Positions 6,059 through 61,568 of a stretch of DNA of 64,000 nucleotides are shown piece by piece. Within the stretch, counting starts at the first letter, position 1. Every line of letters begins with the position of its first letter. The DNA is from Pseudisothecium myosuroides (Eukaryota; Streptophyta; Bryopsida; Hypnales; Lembophyllaceae): positions 436,501 to 500,500 of the forward strand of contig OX637290.1 in the NCBI GenBank assembly GCA_951799445.1, written 5' to 3'. The position numbers were made by a program, and so were the translations under genes. The notes under the pieces were generated by a model that searched no databases, had not been told where the DNA came from, and saw only the letters and a list, made by a program, of their open reading frames with translations.

Positions 6059-6294
6059 CCCACTGTCGCAATGTGCATTTTTGTTTTTTTGTAAGTTATC
6101 TAAATCTTGGAACGGAAATCGTGATCTGGTATCCGGATTCGAGCAAGAGATAACGGAAAACCGGAAATTAACTACGAAACGGAAGAGGTGACAATCCGGA
6201 TTCGATCTGAATCTAAACCGGATTAGAGTTGGAGCGGATCTGAGTTGGAACGGATTGGGTCAGGAACGGATTTGGTCATGATGACGGATCAGAC

Positions 6295-6302
6295 TATAAA
6301 TA
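6295..6302 (+). promoter_or_regulatory. TATA box of the LTR
   Basis: TATAAATA sits in the context CTATAAATAGG, about 231 bp inside the LTR and 270 bp upstream of the LTR ORF. Equivalent TATATAT boxes occur at the same relative position in the other copies: 26516-26522 (+), 35869-35876 (-) and about 18709-18714 (-). Conservation of position across copies supports a real core promoter. Confidence 0.65.
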
Positions 6303-6569
6303 GGCTGACCAATCCAGTTGCCACTCTTTTTCAAACTTTGTTTGCGGAAATCGCGCTCCAGCACGTACTTAGCTTCCCTCCCAGCGCTTTGCTTTCTTGT
6401 TTTGTAAGTGTGTGTATGCGTGTTAGTGTGTTAGAGCGCGCAGCGCTTTAGTTTGTGTTGCAGGTTTAGAGGTATTCCGGTTGAGATCGGAAGAGCGAAG
6501 GTGAGAAACAAGACGTGCGGCTAGGAGAGGGAAAGGTAGCCTCAGTGAGAATCCGGTTTAGCACAGCTC

Positions 6570-35600: not shown

Positions 35601-36107
35601 AACTGTGCTAACCGGATTCTGACTGAGGCTACCTTTCCCTCTCCTAGCCGCACGTCCCGTTTCTCACCTTCGCTCTTCCGATCTCAACTGGAATACCTCT
35701 AAACCTGCAACGCACACTAAAGCGCTGCGCGCTCTAACACACTAACACACACACACACACAAACTCAAAACAAGAAAGCAAAGTGCTGGGAAGAAAAGCT
35801 AAGTACAAGCTGGAGCGACATTTCCGCAAAAGAAATTTGAAAAAGAGTGGCAACTAGATTGGTCAGCCTATATATAGTCTGATCTGTCATCATGACCAAA
35901 TCCGTTCTTGACCCAATCCGTTCCAACTCAGATCCGCTCCAACTCTAATCCGGTTTAGATTCAGATCCAATCCGGATTGTCACCTATTCCGTTCCGTAGT
36001 TAATTTCCGGTTATCGGTTATCTTCTGCTTAATTCCGGATACCAGATCACGGTTTCCGTTCCAAGATTTAGATAACTTACAAAAAACCAAAAATTCACAT
36101 TGCGACA
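32627..36107 (-). mobile_element. Solo LTR, 3481 bp, family 1
   Basis: Flanked by CCCTT at 32622-32626 and 36108-36112. Plus-strand ends are TGTCGCAGCACAG and ATTGCGACA. The TATA box is at 35869-35876 (minus). It interrupts the coiled-coil/RING gene. Removing it with one duplication gives a continuous frame, LPLEKG then KAVDETTK. Its own ORF is broken. Confidence 0.92.
33825..35593 (-). pseudogene. LTR-encoded protein, broken copy C
   Basis: ATG at 35593 corresponds to the start of copies A and B. TGA at 34787-34789 replaces the Arg codon after TTPPH. A one-base deletion near 34325 (ENKYPGPG instead of ENKISGTR) shifts the frame, and the last part runs from about 34310 to 33825. Outside these lesions the sequence is close to copies A and B, so decay is recent. 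Confidence 0.85.
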
Positions 36108-36580
36108 CCCTTCTCGAGCGGAAGAGAAAGTCGATCACTATCTTCAGTCCGTTCACTTTCCTCCCATGAACCCTTGCAATGTTCACATGTCTTCTCGTTT
36201 TGTAATTTCTGTAACATCTCCCGGTGCTCACGTAACGTCCCCTCAAATGTCTTGCAGTTCTTTGTCAACTGCAAATTTTGGACCTTCAATTTCTTGTTTC
36301 TGAGCCGCTCCCTCTCATATTGTTGCTTACGTTCCTCATGTTCTTTCTGCAATGCCGTATACTTTTCCTTCAACTCGTCATGGTCTTCCTTTGCATAAGA
36401 CACTTTCGTAAGCTCTATAATCTTCTTTTCAAAATCACATAAGTTGTTTAGGTCTTTCACCCTATTATCCTGCAGTTTGTTTGCGAAATCAACAAACTTC
36501 CTGAAAGCCAATGCATCATGCATAATCTGTGGCGTGATTTGAGAGAAGGAATCCACGATTGCCTCAAGGCAGGTGTGCAT
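36108..36580 (-). pseudogene. Coiled-coil part of the RING gene
   Basis: The first ATG at 36580 begins MHTCLEAIVDSFSQITPQ. Most of the product is a predicted coiled coil (EKYTALQKEHEERKQQYERE, then RLRNKKLKVQNLQL) followed by CEHCKGSWEESE. At 36108 the frame meets the LTR and resumes at 32621. An exon or gene upstream is possible, since the ORF at 36766-37998 has the same strand and lies 186 bp away. Confidence 0.55.
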
Positions 36581-40801: not shown

Positions 40802-41281
40802 ATGCCATATTTAACTACTTCTGGAATTTACGGGGAATTCTGGACTTTGTGAAGGTCCTGTCCATCGGGAGATCTTCCCGATGGTATGTACAATGAGTCC
40901 GTAATGCCGTTCAAAGGAGATTTAAATCGCTTTGGGATGCTAAGTGGTCTGGAGATTTCCCGATGCAAGGAAATATACTCCTTCGGGATAGAGTGTTCGA
41001 ACAAATCAATGAATTTGAGATGATGTCAACTCTGACATTTGCTGTAAGCGGTACATTTGTATCCGGGGTTGCATTAATATGCGACATCACAGATCGGGAG
41101 AGCTCAGAAGATACTTCCCAAAGTATCACATAACACAAAAGAATGGATGAAGCAACATAATGCAATTACAGACATTTGGTAAGGTGTAATCACAGTCAGA
41201 TAGAAAAGGTGGATTCGCCACTTATATAATCATTTGGATGCAACAAACAGGTGATATATAACCCAGCTAGTCCACTTCCAA

Positions 41282-41764
41282 CTACATGTTTTTTGGGGCC
41301 CAAGACCAATCAAAAGGCGGTGCTATAATGTGCGGACGATCTAACTCTACAGTATCTACATCATCCCTCACATGCAACGCCGGTCGAAGCAAGTGCGGAC
41401 GTTCCCAATCAAGAGGATCTAGGACAAGCATTACAACATTGTTATTCAAGAGTACCCTACGCGTCCGAGGAATGTTCAAGACAGTCTCCAGTATTGCACG
41501 ACGATGGGGATACACCTGGTTCTTCCATGGATTGTCAGACCCGGCAAAAAATAGAAACCTTGACAGAATTTTCGGCGATAGAATACGTCGAAGAAGAGCG
41601 GCCAGTGTTGAAGGTTGCATTGCGGACCACAAACCACAGTGAGTTTCTTGAACGAAATGTCGGAGAAGACCACGGAAGCCGGGCCGAATTTCGATATTCT
41701 GTGGGAGATCCGCCACACCGCCCTTCACGCAGAGATCCCCTGTTAGTACTAAGAGCATCGCCTT
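41282..41764 (-). pseudogene. Degenerate FCP1-like HAD exon
   Basis: A splice acceptor (CTTTGCAG) precedes 41764, and the frame runs to a stop at 41282. The layout resembles the FCP1-like domain at 42943-43595: a hydrophobic strand at the site of the catalytic DxD motif, RPGFRGLLRHFVQ, the LWSAM motif (WSSM in the other two), and a strand before the last Asp cluster. The catalytic Asp motif reads LTGDLC instead of DLNGVL, and the VDDDP motif is not preserved. It would be a pseudo-phosphatase or a decaying paralogue. Upstream exons were not found. Confidence 0.45.
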
Positions 41765-41823
41765 CTGCAAAGACCAAGTAAGCCTCAGTACGCAGACATG
41801 TACATACAAAAACGACGTCAATT

Positions 41824-42914
41824 GATCGTGAGATCCCCCGACCAATATGCAATACAACAGAACCACTAATTGAAAATACGCATGGGTAGTTATTTGAAGA
41901 ACAGCGACTGAATGTCTTATTTGCTGCATAGTGCAAGGAAATTAGCAATACTTCTACGGTGTCACTGCAGCCCAGAATACAGCACTAACAAGGGATGCAG
42001 ATTTAGAATTCGCGTCAAATACAAAAAAAGGTTTAGGGTGACATACTAGAAGACCAAAAATACTTGAGCAAACTAAGGAAGTTACGCAGCAGAAATTCAA
42101 TTGCATTCGATTGAAGCAACAAAAATGGACATTACATAATCCGCCTAAGACTAATAATTCCATGCAAGGGAAAATGATCGTGAGATCTTCCGATCAAGTC
42201 GAAGAGAGAGGTCAAAATTATCAATTTCAAATCCGTACTTCACCAAACCGGAACTGCAAGAGAACTTCCAAACAAACAGTAGAAGCACAACTACAACTTC
42301 ACTGTCATCCACAAGTACAAAAACAATATCACGAGACAATACAAGGACGGAAACGACATTTCAATGTTCACACGTCACGTCGTATCGTGCGATCTCCTGA
42401 TAAAGCTTGCCGCGCAAGATGATGACGCCCAGTGTTAAAATCTAATGAGGTGTTCAAAAAATTCCACTCTTTCGAGTAATATGATAAACAATTTCAGAAC
42501 CAAATTTAGATTAATGCTGCGAACAAAGAGTAAGAAAACAATTCTAAGTGAGGGTCATGCACCGGAAATGCATTCACATTAGATTTAAAAGACAAGGATA
42601 AATGCCCAGAATAGTCCGATCTACCGATAGAATCCACTTCAATCCACGATATACCAATAGATCTCTAGATGTGCATGCACGCGGATTAATAGTCAAGGTC
42701 GAGGTGATCCCTTCGAACTCATAATTATCTTAATCAAAGGCATTTAGGAAAAAAATTTATTTTCACATTTACTACGAGGCAGAATCAATGCCTCCTACAA
42801 ACAAAGAATGTCCAGAATTTCGAAAATGCATTTACAATATTTACAGTATGTTCAAGAGTTTTAAGCTACAAGCAATAATATGCACGCCAAAAGGAGATCG
42901 TGAGATATCACGAT
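41824..42914. repeat. GATC-palindrome cluster 1
   Basis: Copies of the island's palindrome lie at 41824-41842, 42176-42195, 42384-42401 and 42896-42914, with a related copy at 40862-40884 (ATCGGGAGATCTTCCCGAT). The shared form is (A/G)TCG(T/G)G(A/G)GAT(C/A)(C/T)C(A/C)CGA(T/C). All lie downstream of the big minus-strand gene or around the degenerate HAD exon. Confidence 0.75.
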
Positions 42915-42942
42915 GAAGTCCGTCGAGGAAGAAAAACCAAAA

Positions 42943-43595
42943 CTAAACTACTGCCCTCAAAATGTCAGAGCCCGGTCTGGTCAACGGGACCGCCGGTGCC
43001 AGACCATTGTGGAGCGGATGCTTCTTGACATACGCCGGCATAGCTTCCTGTGACTTAAACAGACCTCCGAGCCAAGGACTGAGCACCCCCACAAGGTACT
43101 GGTCCCTCCAGTCCCCTTCAAATTTGTGGGGGAAAATGGCGCTATGACAATTGTTCAGGAGGTTCTTAAGTGGATCGTCATCAACGAAGAGAACATTCTC
43201 GGTTGTCCTCAAACCCAGCTTAGTGGCGAAATGATTTAGATCCTTCAGGAAGTAGGGCCTGTCCGGGTGTTTGGGGTCTCTGTAGGACGACTTTGTGCAG
43301 TCTTCTTGCGTGAGAACAGGCACGTCCTTCGCCTTAACAGACGTCCCCGGCAGCATTTGATTCAATACCTTCGTCACATTTGCCGGTGTCATACTGCTCC
43401 AGAATGCAATGTTTGCATGTCTGTGCACAAAGTCAAGTAACTGACCAACATTCGTTCGAAGTGTTACGACGCGTCTGTTCAAATCATTGAATGACCTGTG
43501 AACAAGAACTCCATTAAGGTCAAAGACCACATAATACCGCTGCCTTTCTACCTGATTCGATGACTTCGCCACCGGTTCAGCAGGCACTCGAAAAA
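42943..43595 (-). other. FCP1-like HAD domain exon
   Basis: This is the last exon of the fusion gene. Motif I is YYVVFDLNGVL, with Asn where FCP1/SCP phosphatases have the second Asp (DLDET). The WSSM(T)PANV segment matches the WSS/TA region. FLKDLNHFATKLG and NVLFVDDDPLKN follow, the latter corresponding to the conserved DD(x)P of this superfamily. Family knowledge: the first Asp forms the phospho-intermediate and the second is the acid/base, so the Asn predicts weakened or altered catalysis. The same DLNGV occurs in the gene at 61569-62486, so it is a lineage feature and not a random loss. Confidence 0.75.
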
Positions 43596-44420
43596 CTGCA
43601 GAATACAAGAGAAGCACAGAGTCAGTGACCGGCCAATTCAAGATTCGTTATCTCGTATGTACATTGACAATAATGTAGGCATGTTACCTGCGGGAGCTCG
43701 GACGCTACAAGCTGGCGCCCCTTCCGCCCTCCTTTTGTCGCCCAATCGTCCTCTTTCCCTCTCGCAACCGCTCACTGATCCTTCCCCCCTCCTCTCGACG
43801 AGCATTTGCCCCTTTCCTCTCTCGTCGGCACTCACTGGTCCTCTTTCCCCCTGGTCACCACTGAAAGATCCCGGCTCAAGGTCGTCGTCGCTCAAAGGCA
43901 CCACCACCCTCCTCCCTCTAACGCCGCCTTCCACTGCCTCCCACTCTTCGTCTGCATCAGGTGGATCCCCTCCATCATACACTGCACGCGGACCATCCTG
44001 AAATATCCATTTAAAGACGGGCTTGTAAAGGAAACGGTTCGCTCGCCTTACGGATTCCAAATGAATTTCCTTGTTGGTATCGAGACGCTTCTTCCCATAA
44101 TGGTTTAGACTCGGTAAATGACCAAATGCTCTCATACGATCAACAAGACAGAACTTCATTATTTCTTCGGCCTCATAAGGTATGGCCTCTAGCACTTTGT
44201 TAGAATTGCACTCACCGTCATCAGGAACCACCTCTCCTGCAACCTCCAGTGGAACACTGGAGGCCAGTGAAGCAATGTCGACAATCCTCGCCCGCCCTAT
44301 CACAGGTATACTCTTCCTTCCAGGAACAGGTTTGGGACTCAGGGGGACCAAGTCAACAAGGGTGTCGTTCAGTACAGCAACCGTGATGCCCATCGGCGGG
44401 AGCAATCGCTCTGGCACAGT

Positions 44421-44760
44421 CATGGGATCCCCCGACGAAGACAATGCAACCACTCCTTCCTGATGTTCACCCCCCTCGCTCTCTGCCGGATCGCCATGAT
44501 GAATTGAGACCACTGACTCTTCAACGATCGTGGGATCCCCAGATCCTTCAGGTCCCGGTGTTCGGCCTTGGTCATCCTTCCCTGCACCACATCGAGAGAC
44601 AGCTAACACAGTCTCCACAGGTAATGCATGGCCCGTCGTGGGATCCCCCGATCCGAGGTGGTCATCATCCCCCTTCGACTCATTCCTCCCCTCGCTGAGG
44701 TCGGCAGCATCCTCCCCGCTCTTGACCAGTGACTCGTTCGTCATCGTGGGATCCCCCGAT
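44421..44760 (-). repeat. Palindrome copies translated as SGDPT
   Basis: Four palindrome copies (44421-44438, 44526-44545, 44635-44653, 44743-44760) lie in exon 5, about 105-110 bp apart, all in the same phase. On the coding strand each reads TCG GGG GAT CCC ACG or close to it, giving ASGDPT, GSGDPT, GSGDPT and SSGDPM. They define a degenerate repeat of about 36 residues in the disordered linker. Confidence 0.8.
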
Positions 44761-47257
44761 GCTGGTCGGTGAGTGTCTTCCAGGGTTAATAATTCGAGGT
44801 CCAGAAGCTGTCTGTCAGCTCCTGAAGCACGAGATGCCTGCGCATCCTCCTGTTGCGGCTGATTCGACTTGTTAGGCCTCGATGGTAACGGTCCCAAGGC
44901 ACAAGTCAGAAGCGCTTCTGCCGCGACTGATGCTTCGGGATTGGGACTCCCAGTCGGCTTCGCTGGCGACTGTTTGCGCTGCACCAACGACTTACTTGGA
45001 GTCCACTTGGAGGACCCCCCCTTCCGATTCTCGAGTGCTGTCTTCCGCGCTCGCTTGACCGCCTTTGTGCTCCCAGTATCCATTGCGGTGTCGGGTTCCT
45101 TGACCGGCGTCTTAAGCGGCTTCCTCTTGGATATCCTTGGGTCCGTTAATTGGATACCTAAATTCACTTTGCCTGACGACCCGCTCGATATTGGAATTAC
45201 AATTCGTTCAGCTGGTGACGGCTCTGGAGTACTCTCATGCTCCTCTGCCAGATCTGCCAGCTCCGCCTGCGCCGAATGAAGTTCGGGAACATCGTCTGCA
45301 TCCTCTGCTCCACTTGGCGCATCCATCAACTGCTCTCGCCGGGGGGAGGGAGTTGGAGATTTCGCCTGCGAGAAAGGCAATATCCCACCACAATTGAGCT
45401 CAGTTTGCCCTCCCAGATTAGCATGCGAGAGAAATACGCTGCCCAACGTCTGGAGATATCACGATGGTTCAGCAAATAATGTACACTAACCTTAGGGTGC
45501 TCAACCGACCTTGTTCCTAAACCCGGTCTGTGTTGGGTGATGTCTTCGAGTACAGCATCTTCATCATCACTCTCAACTTCCTCGTCCTTGTGTTCGGCCT
45601 CCGGATGAGGAAGGGGTGCCGCCTGCGCATGTTTGTCGTCCCAAATCTGCTTGGCGAAGACCTCACTTAACGTCTTCGCTTCCGCTGAATCGACAACTTC
45701 CAGCACTTTACCACCTTCCGAATACTGAAATACAACAACCGGAAATTAATGACATTCAAATCCCTGAAATCGAAATTGAAATTATCAGAAGAACAAAAGA
45801 AAAGACAATCGTTGTAGTGCATACCAAGCCCAGATATGTGAACTCCGGACCCCCGTTGACATTCACAAAGACATAGTCGCTGCAAGCTAGCCCCTCGAAT
45901 AGAATCAACGCACTGCTGATCTTCAGATACGGCATTTGCTGCCGACGCCAGTAAGGGTAGTCGTCCGGCATATCTTCCGCCTTGTACACCTGAGTGAGGC
46001 GGTCCAATCCCGGGAAGAAGCTTTTGAAGCAAGTCCGCCTCTCGTGCTCTTTGCTGTGCCCAAAAATGAAGACAACAAAGACATTGTACCCGTCTCCGGC
46101 CGGAGCTTGAGGGAAGAAGCCTTCGGGCCCTGCCATGCAGTTCACAACGTGCCAGTCCCACAACCTAGCTTTGACTTCCATCCTTCGTTTCTCTATGTGA
46201 GCCACAATCACGTGGAACCCTTCGGCATCTGTGAGAAGAACGGCGCCAGAGCGGGCTACGATTGTCTGGTCCTGCGGGTCATAGTACTCCAGAGCGTCAA
46301 AGAGTCTCTTCAACTTCCGCTCTTCAAGAATTTTGGCGCAACACCCGCAGGACGTTGACTCGAACATGAACCAGATGTAGAGGTGCTGCTTCTTCTTTCC
46401 CCTCCACGCTATGACGTCCCCTGCTGCCAAGGTGGCGCTGATGTCCCAGCTGCTTTCGTCCATGGTTATACAAAGATAGTGCTCTGAAAAATCACGTTCA
46501 TTTGCCTGCACCGATTCCTCCTCCGCCGTCAGCTTGAAATACAACTCCCACATTTGGATCACGGACTGCGGAAGGTCAGCTGGGTCGGACGTCCTGTTGA
46601 GATTTTTCGTCCGATCCTGCAACCACTTCTTTCCAGCAGGAGTTTCCATTGCCTTGTTCACCCACATCTCCACATCCTCGTGCTCAATGTTCCTTTCCGT
46701 CGCAAACTCGACCCACAAAGAGTCCAGGTAAGGCTCGTACTCCACCCTCCTCGCCGGCAGCAGATGACCCTTGTAGTGTGACAAGAGTTCGTTCTTCATC
46801 GCCCTGACCAACCGAATTTTGGCGTCGGCGTCTGCAAGAGAGATAATGCGTTTTCCACCTCTCTGTGATTTCGACTTTGCGACGGAGGTCTTCATGCTAA
46901 TAACTTGGGCTTCGACTTGATCCGCAAGGAAATTGATGTCCTCCGGTCTAAGTCCGTAAAGGGGCTTGAAGTCGTTTGCCGCCAACGGTTTGCGATCCGT
47001 ACTCCCCGATACATCGACCAGCCCCGCCGCGTCGGGAAGGAGACCTGCCATGAATTTCTCCTCTATCTTGATCCATCTCTGAACATCAGCGTCGTTCTCC
47101 AGGAAGAGTAGAGGGATTCTCAGTTCGGCGATGTCTTTCGCCTTTGCTCCCGCAAATATTGATGCCACCGACGGCTGAAACGCCTGCCAACCAAAGGAGT
47201 AACAGTCAGTACGCGATCCGTAGACAGACCACGTGAACACAAGAAGTCCAATAAACA

Positions 47258-47577
47258 GTCGTGCGATCCCACGATCAGTCAATTACCACGAGGAAGTCGT
47301 TTAAGCAACAAGCAGTCGTGAGATATCACAATGAGCCACTATCTTCTACATGCACAATTTGAAAACACCACGCACTGAACCCCCAGCACAAAAGACTAAA
47401 CTAGCGACATCTGGTATTTCATAACTTAACGTCGTGGGATATCACGATCTCCTCATTCTAACGTAGAACTACCCCGTATCTCAAAGCCAGGACTTAGTCA
47501 TGGGATCCCACGATGAGGAGGTTCTAACGTAATGAAGGTCTGAGGTGTAGTGCAGGACCATCGGGAGATCCCACAAT
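47258..47577. repeat. GATC-palindrome cluster 2 (intron)
   Basis: Five copies lie at 47258-47276, 47315-47333, 47431-47449, 47497-47514 and 47560-47577, all inside the intron between 47184 and 47642. They alternate GGATCC and GATATC centres. Spacing is 55-115 bp. Confidence 0.8.
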
Positions 47578-49068
47578 GGTTAGATAGAGCGCACTCTGAT
47601 GACCCCCAAAAACAAATATGTCAACTCCAGCAGCATTCTTACATTGTACTCTACTGACTGTGATCTGCCCAATAGTGCTGGCTGTGGACTTCCCATACTC
47701 CGCCACTTGATTCTTGCGTTCAGCAGCTGCTTCGTGAAGTTCTGCTCCTTCTGTTCGCCAACGACATCTTGGTTCAGCGCCCGCGAGAAGTGCATTAGGT
47801 CTCCGTGGTGATCTTTGTCCGTCCACAGAGGTAAAATATTGAAGGTGGAGGCGAGCTTCTTGTCCTTCTCGGGAATCACACCAAGCCTAATCAGGTCCTT
47901 GAATGCCTGGACAGTGTGTTGGCCCCCTATAATGTAGTAGTGCGTCTTGGGGTTTTCAAAAATCTCCTTCTTCGGCGCTTGCTTCTCATAGTACGACACT
48001 ACCTTCGCCGGGCCATAGGGTCCCACTTTAAGGGGGAGCACTGTTATGACTTTGTTCTCCTAGTCATAATCAGGTGTGATTCGTGCCTTCCTCAACAGCT
48101 CATCAAGCCGCTCTGCCTGAATTCCCCTATACACGAGCAGTGCTACAGGTGCCTGGTGCAGATAGTCATAGTGCACGCGGATGAGCTCTCCTTTGCTGTC
48201 ACAGACTGGTTTCCTGCCCCATTTGTATAGGCCACCGAAAGAGTTCTCGTACAGGGTCTTCATCTTATTCATCTCTTCCGGTGTCATCTTCTTCACGTCT
48301 GCCTCCCCTAGAGCCACAGCCCTGTGAAGCGGAAGCGGGGTATTCGGTTTCTTCTTTTTTCCGGATGTCCCAGCTGCGGCTTCAACTTCGTCCCCGGGAG
48401 CACCAACTGCAGACTTCCTCTTCCTGGTCTTCTTTTTGGGGGATGGCGTGGGAGCAACCGCTGTCACGGCTTGGGGGGGAGCATTCGTATCTCGTAAGTC
48501 TTCCATGATTATGTCCCACTGGTTCTTCAGCTCCTTAGGCTTCCACCGAGGCTTAGACGTGTCTTTGCACATCAGATGTGACCTTGCAGTCACAGACTCG
48601 CACAGAGTGAGGCTGAACTTCGCGTAGTCAAGGATCAGCCCAAACGTTATGATCTCCCCGGAAAGGGGAACCTTCTCCTCTACAACTAGGAGCACTGTGT
48701 CGTCGTCAAGCCCCTTCATTTCAAGTACCTTCAGTCCGGCAGTTGGGTGCCCCATTGTCCCATTCACCAACGTGGGAAGAATAGTGGCGGAGCCGTCACT
48801 CTCTGCTTTCCAGGCGATTCCCCAATGCGTAATCTGCTCGTCGCATCGGAAAAAGGCTTGTGGTGGATGTGGACCTGTGTACTCCAAAGACGTAATGTAG
48901 CAGTCGATGAAGGGACCAAGCTTCCTGGGTGTCAGTTCTTCTGGACCTTCAACGACTTGCATTTCACTGCAGCATGGTAGAAAGAGATGTTAGTTTCCAC
49001 ATTGTCCGATAGAGCAGAATGATGGTGGTGCGATATTATTCCCGTTCTAACTTTAATTTTTATCCTTA

Positions 49069-49740
49069 GTCGTGGGATCCCACGACGGATGTTATGAAAG
49101 AGAAGGAATGGTTTCGTGATCATTTTGATGACCTGGTTTCACAAATTACCGTTGTCGTGGGATATCACGATCGGTTACATTCACGGACAGTAGTGGGCAG
49201 GAGGTTACTGCATCTCAACTCACTAACTGAAGGCGTCCCGGAATATGACGACGGCACCAAATAACATAGAATGGATATTGGAATATCTTAGAAGGTGATC
49301 GGTGATGATTTGTGAAACTACTGTCTGTCGTGGGATCCCACGATTGATTGTTCACATAATCAACGCTATTTGTTAACCTGCCTGCATCTCAATTTCTCTA
49401 CCCACGCTAGACTTTCTCGTCGTGATTTCCCACGACGGTTTAGTACTTGAATGCTCTATGTAGGTGGCCTTCTAATTGTTAAGTCTGGGTCAGGCGCGGT
49501 CTTTACTATCCTCCATCGGGGGATCCCACGATGGGTTACTAATCCGCTGCCTGGTCTATGCTTAATATGTGGTCTGGGTTCAGATTGCGTCTTCACATCT
49601 TATCATCGGGGGATCCCACGATGGGCCACAAACCCTAAATCTCGTGTGGCCGCGCAGTGGTGGGCGGCTAGGGTTTCAAGTCAGGGATCCTACGATGCTC
49701 GAATCTACACAGGGACTGCCCTGTCGTGGGATCCCATGAT
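49069..49740. repeat. GATC-palindrome cluster 3 (intron)
   Basis: Eight copies lie at 49069-49086, 49154-49172, 49327-49344, 49417-49434, 49515-49532, 49605-49622, 49679-49696 (weak) and 49723-49740, in the intron 48967-49999 of the fusion gene. Several are perfect 18-bp palindromes or one base off. The plus-strand ORF over them (RGIPRW repeats) is a by-product. Confidence 0.85.
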
Positions 49741-50802
49741 GCACGGTTTTAGGGTCACTATCCGCGGTAACAGAGTCACGTACTCATTACCGTGTGTTCT
49801 TCTCGGCATATGTACTACCGTATTTCTCGTCCATGTTTATAACAGCGACTATGACAGAGGCTCTACTACCCTCGTTTTCAGCAAAGTGCGTACCAATGCA
49901 ATTGCAAACAGCCATACCCTAATTATTAGCATTGTTTATAACGTAGACATTGCAAGCAAGAAACGGAAAGTAATGAGAATACAATTCAAAGTAACTTACG
50001 GGTCCTTCCAAACTGGGAGGTCTGCTGTACGCTGGGATGGAGCTGCTGCCATCGTAGCTTCCGCTTGCACGGGTCCGGCCTTGTTTTCAGCTACTACAAA
50101 AATGCCCTTCCGCTCTTTGAAAGACTGTTGCATGAAATTCAAATGCAGAAGAAATTGTAGCTTCAATCATTCACTGAGAATCACAAACTCGTAACTTGTT
50201 TCTTCATGACTAGCCAAGTGAATTTAATTGAAGAGAAGGTAAACTTAAATCTAAAGTGACGAACTAAGTAGCCTATCGCACAGAAAACAAGCGTGTCTGA
50301 TCATAGTCATAAAATCCCTGCACAAACCATGTTCTTAATATCATTCACAAACGAGTACTGTCTAACTAAATAATATACAATGAACTCTTCGCTCCATTCC
50401 TCTTTGGGAGCAACATTCCCGTTCCTTACTTCACTTTGCTTCAATTCAAACACTCACAGCAGTCCATACACATTGAACTCTAGTTCGTGAACTACATCAA
50501 GGTTACTTAGCATTTTAGGGTCTACAGTTCATATGAACCGAGAACTACGATGCGTAAGGAGAGCCTACAGCTGCAAGGAAGGCGAGTGCTAAACATTCAT
50601 TGTATCCATGTACTAGAATGATGCAATCTACAAGCTTGAATGGGATCATCAATTCTTTCCAAGCCTAGAAGCTAAAATCCAGAGCAAACGCGCAGCTCTA
50701 TGCAATCAGAAATCCACAACAAAAAAGTAAATCAACCTCACAGATGGAGTCAGAACTACAAAATCAAAATGCTGCTTTGGAGGCTTGACTACGACAAACT
50801 AA

Positions 50803-51193
50803 CCTGTTGGATGAGCCGAGTGAAATCCAACACCCTGTCCTTCTCGCGCAATAGATCCAGAAGCTTGCACACCGCCTCTGCCAGGAAATGCTCCGAACAC
50901 TCCACCACGAGATAGCAGTGTCGTTCTCCGCGCAGCTCGACACAGACTCCGCCAGCGAAATTTGAACACGCTCCTTCAATGTCCCCCGACGCACTCAGCT
51001 CCGCGCACAAATGTTGAACCAAGCAGAGAACCTCCAAACAACCAAACTCACTCGAAATGCAAACCTTCAGACACTGACCCAAACTCACGGACTGCAGCAA
51101 CTGAGAATGAACGCACAAGGAAAGCGGAGAAGCGCACGACTGAGCAAAACGGAGAACGGAGAAGCACACGACGTCAGGAGAAAAACACAGCAA
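50803..51193 (-). other. Possible 5' exon of the fusion gene
   Basis: An open stretch ends KDRVLDFTRLIQQ at a donor (CAACAG, then GTTAGT) and would join in phase 0 to the acceptor at 50124 (SFKERKGIFVV). No ATG occurs in this frame, so it may be 5' untranslated sequence or part of a longer exon with a missed start. This is why the coding start is placed at the ATG at 50052. Confidence 0.35.
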
Positions 51194-51629
51194 GCAGACA
51201 TTGTGAGGAGGAAAGGAAACCAGGAGGAGAGGAAACCGGCGGGGGGAAATGCTGACGTGGCGCTGTCAGGTGCAAGACGGCGGAGGTCATGACTGCCCAC
51301 CCTCCTCATGATTACTGACATCATGAGGAGGGCTTGACTAGAAGTCTTAAGCTAAATAATCACTCATTACACAAAATGCTGAAATTAGGTCGCACACTTG
51401 CACCTCACTAATTTCGTGACATTCGATAATTACCACATACATTTTTTTTGTTTCTCTATAAGAATGCACTATTTGTTATTTAAATATTGTTGCTATTGGA
51501 ACTCTCGAAACTCCATGTCTACAAATAAAAATAATTGTAGAAACGTTTATTTACTTTGATGGCTTGTAAAGTAACTTTGTTGAAATAAGGCAACCTAGTT
51601 ATACTATTTTAAATGTCAGTATGGGAAAA

Positions 51630-52805
51630 AAATGTACAAGTTGTAAATACTCCGCTCATGAAGTGAAGAGTCATGAGCGGAAAAAGTCCATGCTACGTTT
51701 TCCCAAACTTACCACGTAACCTAAAAAAAAAACCTCGGTCTTGCGGTTCAAAGACCCTTCATTCCATAAATCATGCATGATGTTGTACGAGTTAATTTTA
51801 ACAAAAAAAATGTAGTTTTACTATTTTAAATACTCTGCCCATGCAAACATTTGTTACGAATCATGAGCGGTTTAATTTCATAGATTGCTACTAACATTGA
51901 TTTCTAGGTTTAACCTTTGGTTTCGATGATTATTATTTTTTTACAAGCCGCTAAATATGCCTTTAACATAATGAACTTTGATTTCTAGTTTGCACTTGTG
52001 TCATTTTTCTAGAAAATGATTAGTCCAAATTATTTAATTAAATAGAAATGACTGTAACGATTACATAAGTACAGGGAACATTGTTGATGATTCTCCTATA
52101 TAATTCTTTCTCATTCATCTCCTAGGCAATCATTTTCATGTATACAATCAACATGATTGGCAAATGTGTAATGAAGAAATAATATCTAAATTATCTTATT
52201 GTCTTCTATATTAATTGTCTTGCAATGATCATTGAATAGATGTGGACAAGAGCGTGATTGCCCGCGGTTTTAGGGGCATACTAGGTGTTAATCTATTTAA
52301 TTTACTTGTGTTTTGGAGCATATCTGAAGACAATTCTCCAAAGTACGTGACCAAGCCCAGCCGCCCATGATCTTGGAATTACTTGCAAAAAATGGAAATT
52401 AAAAAAAAATGTCAAACAAAGGACGTTTAGAAATGATCTTCAATTTATGAAAAAAAAAGTAATATTAAGTTACAACTTCAATTTTTTGTTTTTAAATCGA
52501 CATGTAATATGTATCACAATTTTGGAAAACGTACCATGGACTTTTCTTGCTCATGACTTCATGAGCGGAAGATTAAGAACTTATATATTCTTTTTTTGAT
52601 ACCGACATGTACTGTTTTATGTATGATTTATGGAATGAGAGTTCTTTGAATGAACCGCAGGCGGAGGAGGACCTTTTTAGGTTACGTGGTAAGTTCGGAA
52701 AAACGTAGCATGGACTTCTCCCGCTCATGCCTCTTCACTTCATGAGCGGAGTATTTTGAACTTGTACCTTTTTTTCTATATCGACATGCATTGTCTTATG
52801 CATGA
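51630..52805. mobile_element. Non-coding element with inverted ends, ~1.2 kb
   Basis: The segment at about 51636-51795 is complementary to about 52610-52775. Shared words include GTAAATACTCCGCTCATGAAG versus CTTCATGAGCGGAGTATTT, and CTTACCACGTAACCT versus AGGTTACGTGGTAAG. Internal CATGAGCGG words form further small hairpins. There is no ORF. This is probably a non-autonomous DNA element; exact ends and target duplication are not resolved. Confidence 0.6.
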
Positions 52806-52809
52806 AATT

Positions 52810-54330
52810 GCCAGACATTTTTAAAACGAAACCATTCCATGGCAGGGCCCGTTTCATTCCCAATTTTTTTTACTTCACGTGAATTAGAATTTTGCAATGG
52901 GCAAGAAGTGAATAATTATAGTGGTGGAATCTAAATCCTAAGAGGAAATCCAACTTCCACGATAGAATTTTATGCATGCATGTATGAACCATCCATGACA
53001 TTTTTAAAATGAAGCCATTTCATGGCAGGGCCCAATATTTTTATTCCCCATTTTTTTTAATTCACGTTAAGATGGATTTTTCAACGGGCAAGAAGTAAAA
53101 ATAGTGGTGGAATCTAAATCCTGAGAGCAATTCCAACTTCCACGATAGAATTTTATGCATGCATGTATGAACCATCCATGACATTTTTAAAATGAAGCCA
53201 TTCCATGGCAGGGCCCGTTTCATTCCCAATTTTTTTTACTTCACGTGAATTAGAATTTTGCAATGGGCAAGAAGTGAATAATTATAGTGGTGGAATCTAA
53301 ATCCTAAGAGGAATTCCAACTTCCACGATAGAATTTTATGCATGCATGTATGAACCATCCATGACATTTTTAAAATGAAGCCATTCCATGGCAGGGCCTG
53401 ACTGTTTCATTCCCAATTTTTTTTACTTCACGTGAATTAGAATTTTGCAATGGGCAAGAAGTGAATATAGTGGTGGAATCTAAATCCTGAGAGGAAATCC
53501 AACTTCCACGATAGAATTTTATGCATGCATGTATGAACCATCCATGACGTTTTTAAAATGAAGCCATTCCATGGCAGGGCCTCACTGTTTCATTCCCAAT
53601 TTTTTTTACTTCACGTGAATTAGAATTTTGCAATGGGCAAGAAGTGAATATAGTGGTGGAATCTAAATCCTTAGAGCAATCCCAACTTCCACGATAGAAT
53701 TTTATGCATGCATGTATGAACCATCCATGACATTTTTAAAATGAAGCCATTCCATGGCAGGGCCCGTTTCATTCCCAATTTTTTTTACTTCACGTGAATT
53801 AGAATTTTGCAATGGGCAAGAAGTGAATAATTATAGTGGTGGAATCTAAATCCTAAGAGCAATTCCAACTTCCACGATAGAATTTTATGCATGCATGTAT
53901 GAACCATCCATGACGTTTTTAAAATGAAGCCATTCCATGGCAGGGCCTGACTGTTTCATTCCCAATTTTTTTTTCTTCACGTGAATTAGAATTTTGCAAT
54001 GGGCAAGAAGTGAATATAGTGGTGGAATCTAAAACCTGAGAGCAATTCCAACTTCCACTGTAGAATTTTATGCATGCACGTGTGAAATTCCATGACATTT
54101 TCAAAATGAAGCCATAGTTCAATGGCAGGGCCCGTTTCATTCCCAATTTTTTTATTTTCATGTGAATTAGAATTTTTCAATGGGCAAGACTAGAAAATAG
54201 TGGTGGAATCTAAGGCTGGAGCAATTACATTTTTCTAAATTAAATTTTATGCATGCATGTATGAAATTTCATGACTTTTTAAATATTATTTAAGCCATTT
54301 CAAGCCATCACGCATTTCATTCCCGATTTT
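52810..54330. repeat. Tandem satellite, 182-184 bp unit, ~9 copies
   Basis: The word CCATTCCATGGCAGGGCC or a close variant recurs at about 52832, 53015, 53199, 53381, 53563, 53747, 53930, 54112 and (decayed) 54294, giving a period of 182-184 bp. Each unit also holds TTTATGCATGCATGTATGA, a run of T, TTCACGTGAATTAGAATTT and ATAGTGGTGGAATCTAAA. The outer units are more diverged than the inner ones, as expected for unequal exchange. The small ORFs here are by-products. Confidence 0.9.
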
Positions 54331-54645
54331 TTGTTTTACATCGGTGGAGATTGTTCAAATAACAATAACAAATAACAATATTACGTACATCGTTGTCAAA
54401 TAATGATGTAGATGTATACCACGTTCGATCATTTCAAAAATCCAGATGAAGATTACATGACCTACAATATTCTCATGAATGACATGATTCCAGGTTTAAG
54501 CATTCATCACTCGTCAAAGTGCATTAACAAATTTGAAAGCATTTAACTCATTAAATCATTCAGACTGAGATTTAAAATACAAAATAAATAAATGGTTCAG
54601 TTTGTTCTTTGTTCCATCATGATTGCACATCCAAAGTCCTTCACA

Positions 54646-54798
54646 AGGGGCTTTTTTGCGTTTCCCTCTCTCACTTTCCCCTATGTAAACAACAATCTTA
54701 TGACTTTTCATTGTGTCAACGGATTGTGACACAAGGAGAAGTCATGGATTGCCGTTTACGCAGGAAAAAATGAGAGAGGGAAACGCAAAAAAGCCCCT
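54646..54798. mobile_element. MITE-like hairpin, 153 bp
   Basis: The left end AGGGGCTTTTTTGCGTTTCC is the complement of the right end GGAAACGCAAAAAAGCCCCT. The arms extend about 30 bp (CTCTCTC/GAGAGAG) around a short centre. No coding sequence and no clear target duplication were found. Confidence 0.75.
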
Positions 54799-55059
54799 GG
54801 TGCTTTATTTAAAAATTCGTAGATGAAATAAAAATTGTGTCAATCATTGTTTAATCCGTAAAGTCCCATATTAAACCATAGGATGTTGTACTACATAACA
54901 AGAATTATATATGAAATCAATCTGTTAACTGACATTTTTAATTAGCAATATTGAGTTAGATTGAATTTTAAGTTCATATGTTCCCAGTCTGAGATGACGT
55001 AAACTTAATTGAGGAAAAAATTGGAAACAAATAATCAACGTCATTTTCATTTTCCATAA

Positions 55060-55285
55060 TACCCTAAACCCTAAAAGCCGTAAACCATGAACTGCAGACC
55101 CTGAAAACGTTAATGTAAAGCGCTGCCACTGTATAAACTAAACCCTATTAAACCCTGAAACCCTGAACCCTGAAACCAAGAACCATGACCTTGAAACCGT
55201 GAACACTACACTACAACATGTACCCTAAACCCTATGACCGTGGACTGTAGACCCTATGACTGTGGACCCTAGACCCTAAGATTGC
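55060..55285. repeat. Degenerate telomere-like CCCTAAA repeats
   Basis: Scattered CCCTAAACCCTAAA, AAACCCTGAAACC and related heptamer variants cover about 220 bp. They resemble an interstitial plant-type telomeric tract in decay. Confidence 0.55.
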
Positions 55286-56614
55286 ATTCATTGGAATAGA
55301 AAATAACAAATATGAACATTCGAGAGTTCAAAATTTTTGTTGATTCTTTTTGTAAGTGAGGTGTTCCACATGTTTCAGGTGCTCAAGTTTTTGGGTTCAC
55401 GAGATTTTGTACAGTTCGTTTTTGTAGGATACGTATGATCAGGTCGTGTAGGGGAAGAATTCTGAGTATTGATCGGGGAAGCGTGTGACATTCTGTGAAG
55501 TGATAGTCTTCAGAGTTTGATCCGCTTTGGTCAAAGCATCATTGACTCCTAGAAAACGGTGCAACGATACCATCCTTGAATGCGGCGAATTTCAAAATGT
55601 CAGTGAAGAATCGGAATTTCAGTGAAGCCTGGATTTGCGAAGTTCCAGTCAGAAAGTCAAGAGCCCCACGCCCTCCCTCCTTGTAGTCGGAGATGCGCGG
55701 AATTCGAGAATGCAATCAACTTCCGAAGTGAAGGACCGCACGTACCCCCCAGCCGTTGTTGATTGTGGCACGGCATTCAAGAACGCATCTAACATTCGAA
55801 ATCAAGGATCGCTTGGTGATTTCAAAATTCGCGGCGGGAATTCAGAGCTGAAGAATTCCAACCAGCCACCTGGTTCATAACCCGAAAAGAACCTGGAGCT
55901 TGCTCTTTTCGATTGCACACGTGAACAGGCGGAGCAGGCTGCGGAGTGGCGAGTGGATGTCTGCCGGTGTTGGCGATAGAGTGGGCGTGGAGGCGCACGA
56001 AGTTCTGACCGAGCCAGTTGCTGCAAGGTAAGAATGCATCCCTTGCAAGTGTTATGCGATTCCGAATGTTGAGGATTTTGTAGTCGAATTGACGCCACTG
56101 CACTCTGTCACAAACTGAGGATGTCGTAGATTGAAAGTGAAACGGAGTCTGCGATAATTTTCTTCGTGCATTGGTATCATTTTGCGAAAAACTCACGTGC
56201 TTAAGGGATCACCATGATGTGGTGACATCAAGGTTCCTTTTGAATCGCGGGACGGCACTGCCCTGAGGGCAAGTTGATATGAGAACCTTGTACGTGGATG
56301 ACAACCGGTCAGAACGTCTTCACAAAGTAGTGAAATTAGGTTGCGTTAGGAATTAGGCGGACTTACATGAGGAAAACCCAGCCATCAAATTCAACTACTT
56401 CTAAGAACGTTTCTTATTGTACCCATGGAGGTTCAGGAGTCTGAATTACAACAAAATCCACTTTAAAAGTAGAGAATTTTTGTACAGTAACTGAGAATAG
56501 TTATAGAGTGTCGAATGTCATGAAAACAGTGACAGGAAACCTAATTTCACGATCTTTGGTAAATACGTCGGTCTACGACAGTAGAATATGTGTATATATC
56601 CAACATACGTAAGC
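55286..56614. other. Intergenic, no gene recognised
   Basis: Several overlapping short ORFs on both strands (55635-56196) have no splice or domain support. No repeat structure stood out. Confidence 0.35.
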
Positions 56615-57296
56615 ATCGTGGGATCCCACGATCTCCGCTTATTGAGCGTGGGCGAGACCTCTCAGTCTTGGAGTAGAGAGATATCGCGGTCTGGTAGTCG
56701 AGGGATGTTCTATCATTTCGTCGTGGGATCCCACGATCGATTGAACCTTGGCTGTGGCCTTCCTGGTGTACGTCTAGGTGCCTTACTTTTCGATGACCGT
56801 CATACTCCTTATCGATCTTGTATAAGCATCGTGGGATCTCACGATCACATTTTCAGTTGGCACCAGGTTCTCCTACTCGGGGGGGTTCACAAACACTCTT
56901 CCGGATTTTACAGGATACCGAACTCGTGGGATCCCACGATTGATTGATAATATGTCGGGGACTCATCAGAGTGATTCAGTTTGACCCACTACTTCATTTG
57001 TATTTCTGTAGCGGTCTATGTGATCCCTTAGGAGGATCTTGGAATACCGCGATCTCTGGTTTAAGTGATTGAGCGCCAGAAGTGTCGTGGGATCCCACGA
57101 TGTATTGATCGTTCTTTGGTTAATGTCTTCTAAACTTCTGCGACGTTTTCCTGGATGCCTTGGCTTCTTCCCAGTGGTTCTGGGACGGCCTTCTTGAGAT
57201 CGCACTATCGCATCTGGGCTTTCGAACTTCTTGTTGACAGTAACTAGATTCACTTGTTCATGTTGCGTTGCCGTGTGATCGTGAGTTCCCACGACT
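56615..57296. repeat. GATC-palindrome cluster 4 (upstream of DUF7869 gene)
   Basis: Copies lie at 56615-56632, 56720-56738, 56828-56845, 56923-56940, 57084-57101 and 57278-57296. Four of them hold the 16-bp TCGTGGGATCCCACGA palindrome without mismatch. Spacing is about 95-195 bp. They end 160 bp before the first ATG of the plus-strand gene. Confidence 0.85.
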
Positions 57297-57455
57297 GTAC
57301 AGACGTTGATGCTTCTGTCCTTCATGTCGTGAGGTTACAATGTCATGAATGCAACGCTCTTCTGTAGACATGCCTAACTCCTTGAATGTATGATGTACAG
57401 GTTTTACAGATCGTTTTAATCTCGTCCAAGGGATTCGATAGAGCTCACTCTAACA

Positions 57456-59936
57456 ATGGATTCATTCTGTGAGTCTGCTGCTGACGCGATAGTTCCATAT
57501 GTGGACAGAACGCATGTAGAGGGTGAATCATAGGATTCCACCGGTGGATGTGAAGCGTTTGTGAATGGTGATTGGATTAAGCTGTTTGTGACTGGATTCG
57601 GTGAAGTTGGTTCAGGAATCGTTAAAGAGGTTCGTCCCCAGGACCAGTGGCTGGGTGTGCCCATACCTATTGAGCCTTGGATTTACATTCTGGTGCGACC
57701 TCATTCTATCAAATTAGAATTCCAGGATTTGAAATGCTTTCCTTGTTAGAGGGGTATGAACACATTAGAGGATGTTCTAGAGAATGTAGTGTTGTGGAGA
57801 GCCGCCGACGTTGTTAGAGCGTCGGGGGATCCCCCGATGGATCCATGTCCGTATATTCGTCAAGGAACCTGGTTTGGACTTGATGTGCATCGGAAGGACG
57901 CCGACGGACTCCTCGTTTTCTCGGGTCGTATCATTTGTTGGAGTCCGGAGGATCATTTCCAAGAGGAGACACTTGTTGAAGGTTTCCTAGGTGTGACAGT
58001 CCTCGATGTTTTTGTGGGTGACACCGAAGCCATAATGTCTCACGACAGGTGGCCAATTTCGGAGTGCTGGTTTCCCAACGGTCGTTTGTTGAAGGAGACA
58101 GTGGATCATTTTGCCGCCATTCCCAATATGGACGACCCTCTCGCTTACCTCGGAGGTAGAATGAAAGCACCATATTGGTTTATAGTTCGCAAACCCAATC
58201 TGGAACTGAAGGAATCGCAGTACTCCCGCAAAACGGCAGACGAGGAGATTCGGAAAGTCAGCTCGGAGAAGTGCTGCAGACGTCTGTGTTGTCAGCATTA
58301 TAACCAGGAGTTCACGCTGTTAGTAAGGCAAAAGTACTACTTGAAGTCGTTTGACGAGCGCCGTGAATATGGGATTGGAGTGGGAGGACAACTACACGAA
58401 AGGTACGGGGAGCGGAAGCGGAAATACGTCACGCTAGAGGGAGTTGATGTTTGTGGCAAGGCGTGGCACATAATTCACGGCATCTCGAAGTCCACTTACC
58501 ACAGTTACATCGAGATGTACAACGATGGCGTTGTATCAGGGACGCACGGAAACACAGGGGTTAAGCGCCCGCGGGCTCGGACTGTTCAGGTCGCTGGGAC
58601 TATGAAAGCCATTATTGACGAGAATGCTGATCAAATGCCCCACCAAATGCGCGGCATCGGGAACGGGCGAACGGACACTCTAAAATTCCTTTGTCCCGGA
58701 AGAAATTGGAAACAAGTCCGAGCAGACGCCAACGAGGTAGTGCCCCTTATCTCCTGTCACTGCTTTATTGATCGTGAGAACTCCCGACGAGATCAATGAT
58801 CGTGAGATATCACAATCACTGTTCTGGTGCATTGCTTGTCATTTGCATTCCTTCCCCTTTGCTCGTACCGATGCTTAAGCGTACCAATTCTGGATGTGCA
58901 GTTGAATGCCGACTACGGTCTGCCGCCCATGAGCCAGTCGACTATTAGTAGACTCAAGCGGGAGTACTTCAACAACGTCTCCATTAAGCCTGTCGGAAGT
59001 TCGTTTGCAAAATGTACTACGTGCAACAACCTACAGCAGTTTATTCTGAAGTCTCCAAAAGGAAGCCCCGAGTACGTGGAGTTCGTGAAGCAGCGGACTC
59101 ATCATCTGAATCACCAAGCTTCTTGCCGTCGTTTGTATGCGTCTTGGCGTGAGGAATCCAAACGAGATCCTCGAAGAATTTTATGTATAATTCACGACAA
59201 GATGGATACATCCAAGACGGCTCTACCCAGACTCCGGGTGACAACGAAGGCCACGGCCGGTTTGGGGCAGCTTCCGATGAGCGTTACTGGAATGGTAGCT
59301 CATGGCCATGGTGACGGTGCTTACGCCCATTATGCTCCATCTTGCTGGCCGGCGGACTCCAACTTCACCATTTCGTCTTTGGCGAGGTTGTTGCGCCGGC
59401 TGGAGGGTCCACCTATTCGAGAGGCAGGCGACCTCTTTCCATATCCGCCGGCTAACTCATTGTTCGAAGCACTGCTTAGAGGAAAGTCTAGATGTATGGA
59501 CAGCCTAACCCTCACCGAACCTGGAGCTCGGGTTGGAAATACCCCTCTTCCTGAAAATTTATATCTTCAGCTTGACAACTCTGCCAAGGATAACAAGAAC
59601 AAATATCTGATGGCGTTCTTATCCTTGCTCACTGCACGAGGTGTATTCAAGGAAATTCAGGTTGGGTTTCTACTAGTCGGACACACACACGAGGACATCG
59701 ATGCATATTTTAGCCACCTTTCCAAGGCCCTGAAGACCAAGAACACTTTTGTCGTCGCTAACCTCATGAAAGCCTTCATGCAGTCCCAAGAACTGTCATT
59801 TATGCCGGAGTTCATACAGGAGGTGGGGGATTTCAAGTCGTTCGTGGAGGGTTACCAATGCGATCGCGGGGAAAAATTAATTGGATTAACATCATATTCA
59901 TTAAAATGGGAGTTTTCCAGGGAAATGGGAGTATAG
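57456..59936 (+). pseudogene. DUF7869-like transposase-type protein
   Basis: Exon 1 runs 57456-58736 and exon 2 58902-59936, with GT-AG ends and phase 0. TAG at 57531-57533 and 57747-57749 interrupt the first exon. From ATG at 57756 the frame is clean to 59936. The middle has CCRRLCCQHYNQEFTLLVRQ, then CGKAWHIIHGISKSTYH. Exon 2 has SFAKCTTCNN, then IHDKMDTSKTALPR, YLQLDNSAKDNKNKY and LVGHTHEDIDAYFSHLSK. I recognise these as the DUF7869-type family found in many eukaryotic repeats. The three acidic positions resemble a DDE/D nuclease triad, but that is my inference. The C-terminus is short for the family. It shares the palindrome with the fusion gene and may be its mobilising enzyme. Confidence 0.65.
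58770..58817. repeat. Palindrome pair in the DUF7869 intron
   Basis: Two copies (58770-58788 with centre GAGAACTC, and 58798-58817 with centre GATATC) lie 10 bp apart within the 165-bp intron. A further copy at 57821-57838 is translated as ASGDPP in exon 1. Confidence 0.75.
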
Positions 59937-60255
59937 GGAACCCTACAAATCATAAATTCAAGAGAATTAGATTTCTATATATACAGAACTTGCAATGCAG
60001 TGACAGAGGAAGCATGCATATAGGAACAAAATTTGTACATACCAAAGATTACTTACAAAATACACTGCAATTTCATGAAAGTAATCATTGAATGTATATA
60101 TCACTGAATGTACAATCACACTGACATGTGACTTTGTTAAAGCAACTAAGCTCCTATACTGATGCATTACTAGTAGTTAACTGTTTATGCTAAACACGTG
60201 CGCACCCTTCCAAAGAAAATGATACATTGTTGACAATAAATGTTTATAAAAAAGA

Positions 60256-60553
60256 TACCTCAGTATTTGAAGGATGAAATTCATTGCAAGCTATATGTAG
60301 CAACTATAACCATAGCGGATATGAAGTCAAGATCGAAACTTAGAAAAGTATAGAAACAAGCTATATCACTCTCCTTGACAAGTACTCTTACACACCGGAG
60401 TGTGTAAACTGCAGTCTATAAGAGTATTTGTGAAGAAGAATGACATAGTTTGATTCTAGAATTTTCTAAGTTCCAGTCTTGAGTTCATATCCTCTGTGGA
60501 AATAGTTGCTACCTACACTTTGCAGTTCATTTCATCCTTCAAACACTGTGGTA
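60256..60553. mobile_element. MITE-like imperfect hairpin, ~300 bp
   Basis: The left end TACCTCAGTATTTGAAGG pairs with the right end CCTTCAAACACTGTGGTA with two mismatches. Further pairing runs inward through GATGAAAT/ATTTCATC and a central TACACACCGGAGTGTGTA palindrome. It is non-coding. Confidence 0.65.
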
Positions 60554-60722
60554 CTTTCCTTACAAATTCTCACTTATCACACCGTGGCACCTTCTCTACT
60601 CTATAATAGTCTTCAACCCTATCCACATTTACATTCTTTGTAAGAGAGCTATCCTATCTTATGTACAATTCCTATGACTCGGACATTTCCATCTTTTTCA
60701 TAGCTTCAAATATCTCAGGTCC

Positions 60723-61323
60723 TCAACTATATCCAGTAAATTTGGTCGATCTTTGACTCGATGCCTCTCGTCTTTGTTTCTTCAAGGACCTCAACTTCCA
60801 AGCGTCCCATGGACGACGGCTTGGATGCTCCAATACAGGATTAACTTCACGAGGCTTTTGTTCACACCATCGTACGCCTATTGAATTGCATTTAGGCAAA
60901 TCACATTGAAGAACATTACGTAATACAGTTTGCTCTCGACCATTGAATCTAGGAGACGTTGAATCTCGAGAATCCGTGACGCGATAGCCAATAGACTCAT
61001 GGCCTACGTGGTCACCCTGAAAAAACAAATGAAATCAAACCTTACACAAACATCTTAAAACATAAAATACACAGTAACAAATATTGGGTGGATTATCAAC
61101 TACAAGGATTCCATCCCGTTACCTGAATGGCAGGCCTTATAGCCATTTCGTCATCATAGAGCTTCCTTTGTTTCACTACATTCCGACTTGAATAATCCCG
61201 TGGAGAGTTTGATAGTGGACAACATTTGAGTGAAGAAGGCGAGCTCATAGGGTGAGCTCGCTTTCTTCGCTTAGGTGGACTATCGACAACCCCATCATCG
61301 ATAGGCATCATTGAGAAATCCAT
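60723..61323 (-). CDS. Small two-exon gene, unknown (164 aa)
   Basis: Exons are 61323-61123 and 61016-60723 (minus strand). The donor follows ATTCAG and the acceptor is TTTTTTCAG, phase 0. The predicted protein begins MDFSMMPIDDGVVDSPPKRR, has basic clusters (PPKRRKRAH, KKQRRE) and a CDLPKCNSIGVRWCEQKP segment that could hold a metal or form disulphides. No domain was recognised. It may be the tail of a larger transposon gene because the upstream frame is also open to 61476. Confidence 0.42.
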
Positions 61324-61568
61324 TGTTGATTGCGCAGTTAGCTCTGAATACAAGACATGCTTCAATCCACGATAGGATACGATCAATTGTCCACGGCAAG
61401 AAATGAAGACATTAGAAGTAGTACAAAATACAGACATACCCACACAGAAAAAATCATAAGGACAAAAGAAAAACAATATTCATATGAACACAATACAATA
61501 ACAAATCCCAGAACAACCAATACGTTACTGCATATGGACTATTACATGGAGATTCCAAGGAGTTCAAG

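Follow-up and report, generated by a model that had tools for sequence, protein, structure and literature searches.

The En/Spm transposase TnpA works with arrays of subterminal binding sites. In Arabidopsis, the VANDAL21 and VANDAL6 elements and their VANC proteins go with family-specific motifs that lie in upstream regions and introns and have been spread by tandem repeats, according to the accessible parts of two reports (PMC5735166, PMC10398659). Here we report on a 64,000-nucleotide stretch from the moss Pseudisothecium myosuroides (contig OX637290.1, positions 436,501 to 500,500 of the forward strand; the window), in which long palindromes are scattered through one copy of a ~21-kb DNA transposon carrying a DUF7869 gene and a second gene that ends in a phosphatase exon. 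We consider it probable that a protein of the element itself, most likely its DUF7869 protein, recognises these palindromes as family-specific sites; this putative DDE-type transposase would bind as a dimer through a predicted helix-turn-helix (HTH). The original prediction for this DNA had described about 30 palindromes confined to one island, and had suggested that they may be subterminal sites of a large composite transposon joining the two genes.

The palindromes belong to a cut-and-paste-type element with terminal inverted repeats (TIRs) and 4-bp target-site duplications (TSDs). We fetched five related clusters on contig 1 (copies A to E), chosen by their window-like site spacings. Their match to the window extends to 59887 in every case, and copies A, B, D and E start exactly at the base equivalent to 40802; copy C is without both ends. 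Past 59887, copies A, B, D and E share a further ~2.4 kb to the TIR and copy C shares ~1.8 kb. The complete copies measure 21,155 bp (A), 21,506 bp (B), about 21.7 kb (D) and 27.2 kb (E, with insertions). All four have 24-bp TIRs, which the original prediction had proposed to look for at the borders of the island, and the window copy keeps the left one; all four also have 4-bp TSDs (ACAA, ACCT, CCTT and ATGA, read by eye). As the same element recurs with one TIR pair, it is a single element and not a composite of two transposons: the two genes are indeed joined in one transposon. A genome search with the left end gave 196 first-look candidates, and the 40 that were scored are 99-100% identical over 499 bp, indicating that the family is young and numerous. 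The window copy itself has lost its right end and has premature stops in both genes. Three known groups were rejected. TIRs of CACTA/EnSpm elements begin with CACTA/G, and the ends here begin with ATGCCATA, which is not the CACTA-type start. The target duplication of piggyBac is TTAA, and the four TSDs above and others differ from it. Membership of the VANDALs, which are Mutator-like elements (MULEs), was rejected on the 4-bp TSD, the palindromic motif and the lack of a MULE domain among Pfam matches of the scanned open reading frames (ORFs) at E<=1.

At up to three mismatches, the consensus ATCGTGGGATCCCACGAT has 22 matches in the window (41825-57838), against a mean of 0.02 in shuffled sequence. 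A symmetric position weight matrix (PWM) trained on copy A gives 32 matches; our final tally is likewise 32, after removal of a doubtful match at 57036 (11.2 bits) and manual addition of a 23-bp variant at 40862 that escapes the PWM. All of these ~32 sites lie inside 40802-59887, where the PWM finds the clusters at the places originally described, and it has no match in 1-40801 or 59888-64000. When copy A is Markov-shuffled 20 times, each shuffle yields 0 or 1 match, whereas the real copy A has 38 sites and copy B has 40, some of them in the right-hand part that the window copy lacks. The sites span the whole element rather than its subterminal parts: 19 of the 32 are intergenic or in untranslated regions, eight are in introns and five in coding exons, by an exon model drawn by eye and with site 41825 counted as intergenic, even though it falls within a 215-aa ORF (41282-41929, minus strand). 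The four palindromes in exon 4 of the minus-strand gene are spaced exactly 108 bp apart and are read in one frame (S-G-D-P-T in copy A); between these 108-bp units of copy A, identity is 93.5% within the 18-bp cores and 32% in the remainder. All five coding palindromes share one frame, S-G-D-P (copies A and B), despite other frames being possible.

The variants are palindromic in a weak sense only. Among the 38 sites of copy A, two are perfect over 18 bp and eight over the inner 16; the half-sites agree at 271 of 342 positions, compared with 262 +/- 5 when halves are re-paired (P=0.055), and position 7 (G/A) is the only coupled one (P=0.013). Each half separately fits RTCGKGRGA. Compensated change in the two half-sites, as originally proposed, is therefore unsupported, since the halves vary largely independently. 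We agree that a repeated symmetric site of this kind would suit a dimer, as a prediction, and the half-site symmetry, as read from sequence, decides neither for nor against dimer binding. Helical phasing was not seen for the family I (window-type) sites (R 0.15 at 10.5 bp, P=0.56), and the phasing signal in families II-IV, described below, stems from non-independent repeat units. Arrays of different clades (L042, L027, L028 and the window element) share spacings of about 105-108 bp. Relative to copy A, window sites 44419, 47315, 47497, 47560 and 58799 show TCG to TCA or CGA to CAA changes, the kind of change that decaying methylated CpG would leave once the copy had inserted.

The confinement to one island holds inside the window and not genome-wide, as the 388-Mb genome contains 5276 sites at up to three mismatches, against 542 for the reversed control. 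Among the matches listed, all on contig 1, sites form clusters with the spacing of the element or sit in its miniature inverted-repeat transposable elements (MITEs); a uniform distribution, which the original prediction had named as contrary to it, was not seen among them. At least 51 exact 16-mer sites were listed, of which we read eight isolated ones, a set that leaves aside C1:52578067 and C1:52585609, whose 7.5-kb distance is that seen in the element, along with a cluster at C1:18.12-18.14 Mb. One of the eight lies in a full-element relative (L033, 93%) and seven lie in short MITEs. Six of these (L031, L032, L034, L036, L037, L038) are ~200-250 bp long and have the TIRs of the element (82-87% where aligned), with one or two palindromes adjoining the left TIR, except for L036, one MITE nested in another, which has four. 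The seventh, L035, has no blastn match to the element and is by eye a decayed MITE of like kind. A 4-bp TSD was recognised by eye at six of the seven loci (L031, L032, L034, L036 inner, L037, L038) and is unclear in L035. The MITEs read retain the ends and the palindromes, and little besides. One MITE used as query drew 553 first-look candidates from the genome, and the 40 scored are full or near-full length and 83-100% identical.

In pooled comparisons, the sites have also changed more slowly than the rest of the element. When copy A (39 sites) is compared with copies B, C, D, E and the window, pooled differences in CpG-type context amount to 2.2% at sites and 4.2% elsewhere (P=9e-5), and in other contexts to 1.8% and 2.8% (P=0.008), which puts the rate at sites at 0.5-0.6 of that in the remainder; the five comparisons share copy A as reference and are hence non-independent, and the effect comes mostly from copies D and E.

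The DUF7869 protein has its closest named relatives in the mosses Physcomitrium patens (52%) and Ceratodon purpureus (51%), with other matches reaching 80%. The predicted fold of a relative resembles DDE-type transposases with modest scores: an RNase-H-like core follows an HTH-like region and holds three invariant acidic residues, and a KOW-like N-terminal part and a chromo/PWWP-like C-terminal part are added. On these models, DUF7869 is a candidate DDE-type transposase. In the window copy, exon 1 of its gene is broken by premature stops, as seen by eye in comparison with copy B. A search for relatives in viral contigs gave 70 peptide-pattern stretches, none of which was confirmed. None of the 5.39 million papers searched mentions DUF7869, and no such element is described in the titles or abstract openings that were listed; the accessible part of one paper names other P. 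patens DNA transposons (PMC7466625). The second gene, on the minus strand, ends in an exon encoding an NLI/FCP1-type HAD phosphatase, and its exon 1 has a premature stop in the window copy. No relative of its companion part (exons 1-2) reached E<=1e-3 in the protein collection, where 7995 candidates were scored. The fusion protein had been labelled ParB-like, a label that finds no Pfam support at E<=1 and no PDB sequence match, and its single-sequence structural model (predicted local distance difference test, pLDDT, 35) is too poor for use.

Other DUF7869 clades in the same genome carry palindromes of their own. A search with PF25273 gave 1223 first-look candidates and 153 reported matches (about 150 listed), and we inspected 12 loci outside the window family. 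L026 (family II) carries AGGTTCAGRGTGGCCRCYCTGAACCT; its copy L029 is 95-97% identical and aligns through the array. L027, L028, L040, L042 and L043 carry TTATCTTCGASTCGAAGATAA or close variants, L030 being a 98.9% copy of L028. L039 carries TTAACTCGAAGCGAGTTAA, the weakest type, with 3-5 sites by method against up to 2 in shuffles. No palindrome was seen in L025, L041 and L044, the most divergent clade. At up to three mismatches, types II and IV occur 449 and 1590 times in the genome, compared with 0 and 10 for the reversed controls. Of the exact sites tested, 36 of 48 (type II) and 28 of 52 (type IV) have a listed DUF7869 match 2.1-3.5 kb downstream of them, and no site is found downstream of such a match within 4.5 kb; the proportion is 4 of 50 for the window type, because few of its loci appear in the match list. 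(One of at least 51 type I rows, C1:52585609, and two of at least 50 type II rows, C3:4238319 and 4238578, were omitted from these counts.) The type II sites fall at 7 loci and the type IV sites at 20, with no overlap between the two sets; 32 of the 36 type II sites are at matches with the 634-aa frame of L026 and four at a match with a 548-aa frame. L027 and L028 have a common palindrome and common predicted recognition-helix residues (KATFYRYK), whereas families I and II differ in both predicted helix and palindrome (by eye, four sequences). The family II element, ~6.2 kb by boundaries drawn from two copies with no clear TSD, has its own array, and its two DUF7869 exons are the sole ORFs over 200 aa, the length down to which ORFs were scanned; this speaks for the DUF7869 protein as the one that reads the palindrome. 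Some family IV sites are 10 kb or more from the gene, so that elements there may be larger and may have companion genes. Taken as sequence patterns, these observations suggest a separate DNA word for each kind of element, by which the element would recognise itself.

We propose that the terminal sites, which MITEs keep beside their TIRs, would recruit the transposase in cis for excision and insertion. At the internal sites, upstream of and within the genes of the element, the same protein may mark the element, and it would control or un-silence these genes. We infer the identity of the binder, its binding as a dimer and the regulatory role of the internal sites from these patterns. More tentatively, DUF7869 elements may constitute a plant transposon group with a clade-specific long self-recognition palindrome, arrayed upstream of the transposase gene and in-frame in coding exons, which would co-diverge with the DNA-binding helix and serve both mobilisation and release from silencing. 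Several observations weigh against recognition by the transposase and would suit palindromes that arose, without any function, through tandem duplication and the recent spread of copies: the copies are young, the arrays of families II, III and IV are built of 54-67 or ~105 bp units, and slowing is absent at non-CpG site positions of copy B (1.5 v 1.1%). The CpG-type sites of the window copy, barely slower than the rest (3.1 v 3.3%), also count against our proposal. We nevertheless find a by-product quite improbable, because sites are kept as flanks diverge (93.5 v 32% identity in family I, 78 v 54% in family IV and 84 v 66% in family II), change more slowly in the pooled comparisons and are retained by the MITEs read.

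A different binder has also to be considered. The companion protein, an orphan part encoded by exons 1-4 and fused to the FCP1-type phosphatase, might take the role of VANC, binding the sites and stripping silencing marks. Sites upstream of genes and in introns, and tandem repeats in families II-IV, are what the accessible parts of the VANC reports describe for its targets (PMC5735166, PMC10398659), and the lack of relatives of the companion protein points the same way. This reading is rather unlikely in our view: family II has an array and, at that ORF threshold, no such companion, minimal MITEs keep sites and have no gene to un-silence, and some sites are in coding exons. Certain plant factors read GTGGG/CCCAC, and the clustering of sites upstream of both genes would suit a capture, by the element, of binding sites for host transcription factors or chromatin proteins. 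Such a capture is improbable, given that all eight isolated exact matches read on contig 1 are element-derived and that unrelated palindromes occupy the same place in other clades. Segregation or anchoring sites of the ParB/parS kind, read by the fusion protein, would be palindromic and multicopy too, in line with the earlier impression of a ParB-like stretch; with no Pfam ParB match, a chromosomal element, an unusable model of the protein and an array in family II without such a gene, we give this possibility very little credence. Recognition by the DUF7869 protein thus remains our preferred explanation.

Around the element, the window contains a ~3.5-kb repeat in four copies of alternating orientation (6064-9536, 15462-18946, 26281-29769 and 32627-36109), 91-97% identical to one in the flank of copy C (L013); two of the four hold a 609-aa ORF with no Pfam match above cut-off. 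A reverse-transcriptase zinc-finger (zf-RVT) remnant is at 18980-20191 and a hAT-like remnant (DUF659, slightly under its cut-off) at 24744-25751. An inverted repeat at 60243-60566, with 159-nt arms that are 78% complementary and 6 nt apart, has the look of a foldback element. Just beyond the transposon, a second NLI/FCP1-type phosphatase gene (61569-62453, minus strand) has 29% protein identity to that of the element, and neither a palindrome nor a DNA match to the element was found in it. The features of the element are collected in Table 1.

Table 1. Features of the transposon copy, in window positions.
Feature	Position	Strand	Remarks
~21-kb DNA transposon copy	40802..59887	+	complete at left; lacks ~2.4 kb at right, including the right TIR
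Left TIR, 24 bp, ATGCCATATTTAACTACTTCTGGA	40802..40825	+	complement closes copies A, B, D and E at right
Left-end palindromes	40862..40964		23-bp CCATCGGGAGATCTTCCCGATGG at 40862, plus 40947
Palindromes 41825, 42177, 42384, 42897	41825..42914		counted intergenic
Five-exon gene	42943..48962	-	exons ~48962-47643, 47183-45825, 45724-45491, 45365-43688, 43595-42943; GT/AG by eye
Palindromes 44419, 44527, 44635, 44743	44419..44760		coding exon 4 of minus-strand gene
Palindrome	45448..45465		intron 3 of minus-strand gene
Palindromes 47258, 47315, 47431, 47497, 47560	47258..47577		intron 1 of minus-strand gene
Palindromes 49069, 49154, 49327, 49419, 49515, 49605, 49723	49069..49740		upstream of minus-strand gene
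183-bp tandem array, 8.1 units	52814..54283	+	internal, belongs to element
Palindromes 56615, 56720, 56828, 56923, 57084, 57278	56615..57295		upstream of DUF7869 gene
DUF7869 gene	57455..59887	+	exon 1 to 58736, intron 58737-58901, exon 2 from 58902, cut at 59887
Palindrome	57821..57838		coding exon 1 of DUF7869 gene; S-G-D-P-P in copy B
Palindromes 58771, 58799	58771..58816		intron of DUF7869 gene

These results link DUF7869 to what is likely a transposase, whose elements have TIRs, target duplications and MITEs, and they show related proteins that go with different palindromes, a natural series within one genome. Two questions can now be tested directly: how the DNA target of a transposase shifts, and whether sequence-specific self-recognition lets plant elements other than VANDALs escape silencing. 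Compared with IS630/mariner and integrase-type DDE enzymes (SETMAR, Mos1, IstA, retroviral integrases), the DUF7869 protein has, by predicted fold only, the same order of HTH-like region and RNase-H-like core with three acidic residues, whereas its KOW-like and chromo/PWWP-like parts and the much larger element set it apart. As with TnpA of En/Spm, each element has many copies of one likely binding motif, likely needed in cis; unlike those of En/Spm, the moss sites are palindromic and lie across all 21 kb, the ends begin with ATGCC and not CACTA, and the TSD is 4 bp. By analogy, the closest known case is VANC in the Arabidopsis VANDALs. The moss element differs in that its sites also lie in coding exons and MITEs, its transposase is DUF7869 and no VANC homologue was seen, and in having long palindromes where the accessible part of the VANDAL report describes a 9-bp motif arrayed in one orientation (PMC5735166). 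As in VANDAL21 and VANDAL6 in that same account, a short family-specific motif is dense upstream of genes and in introns, and it differs between related families.
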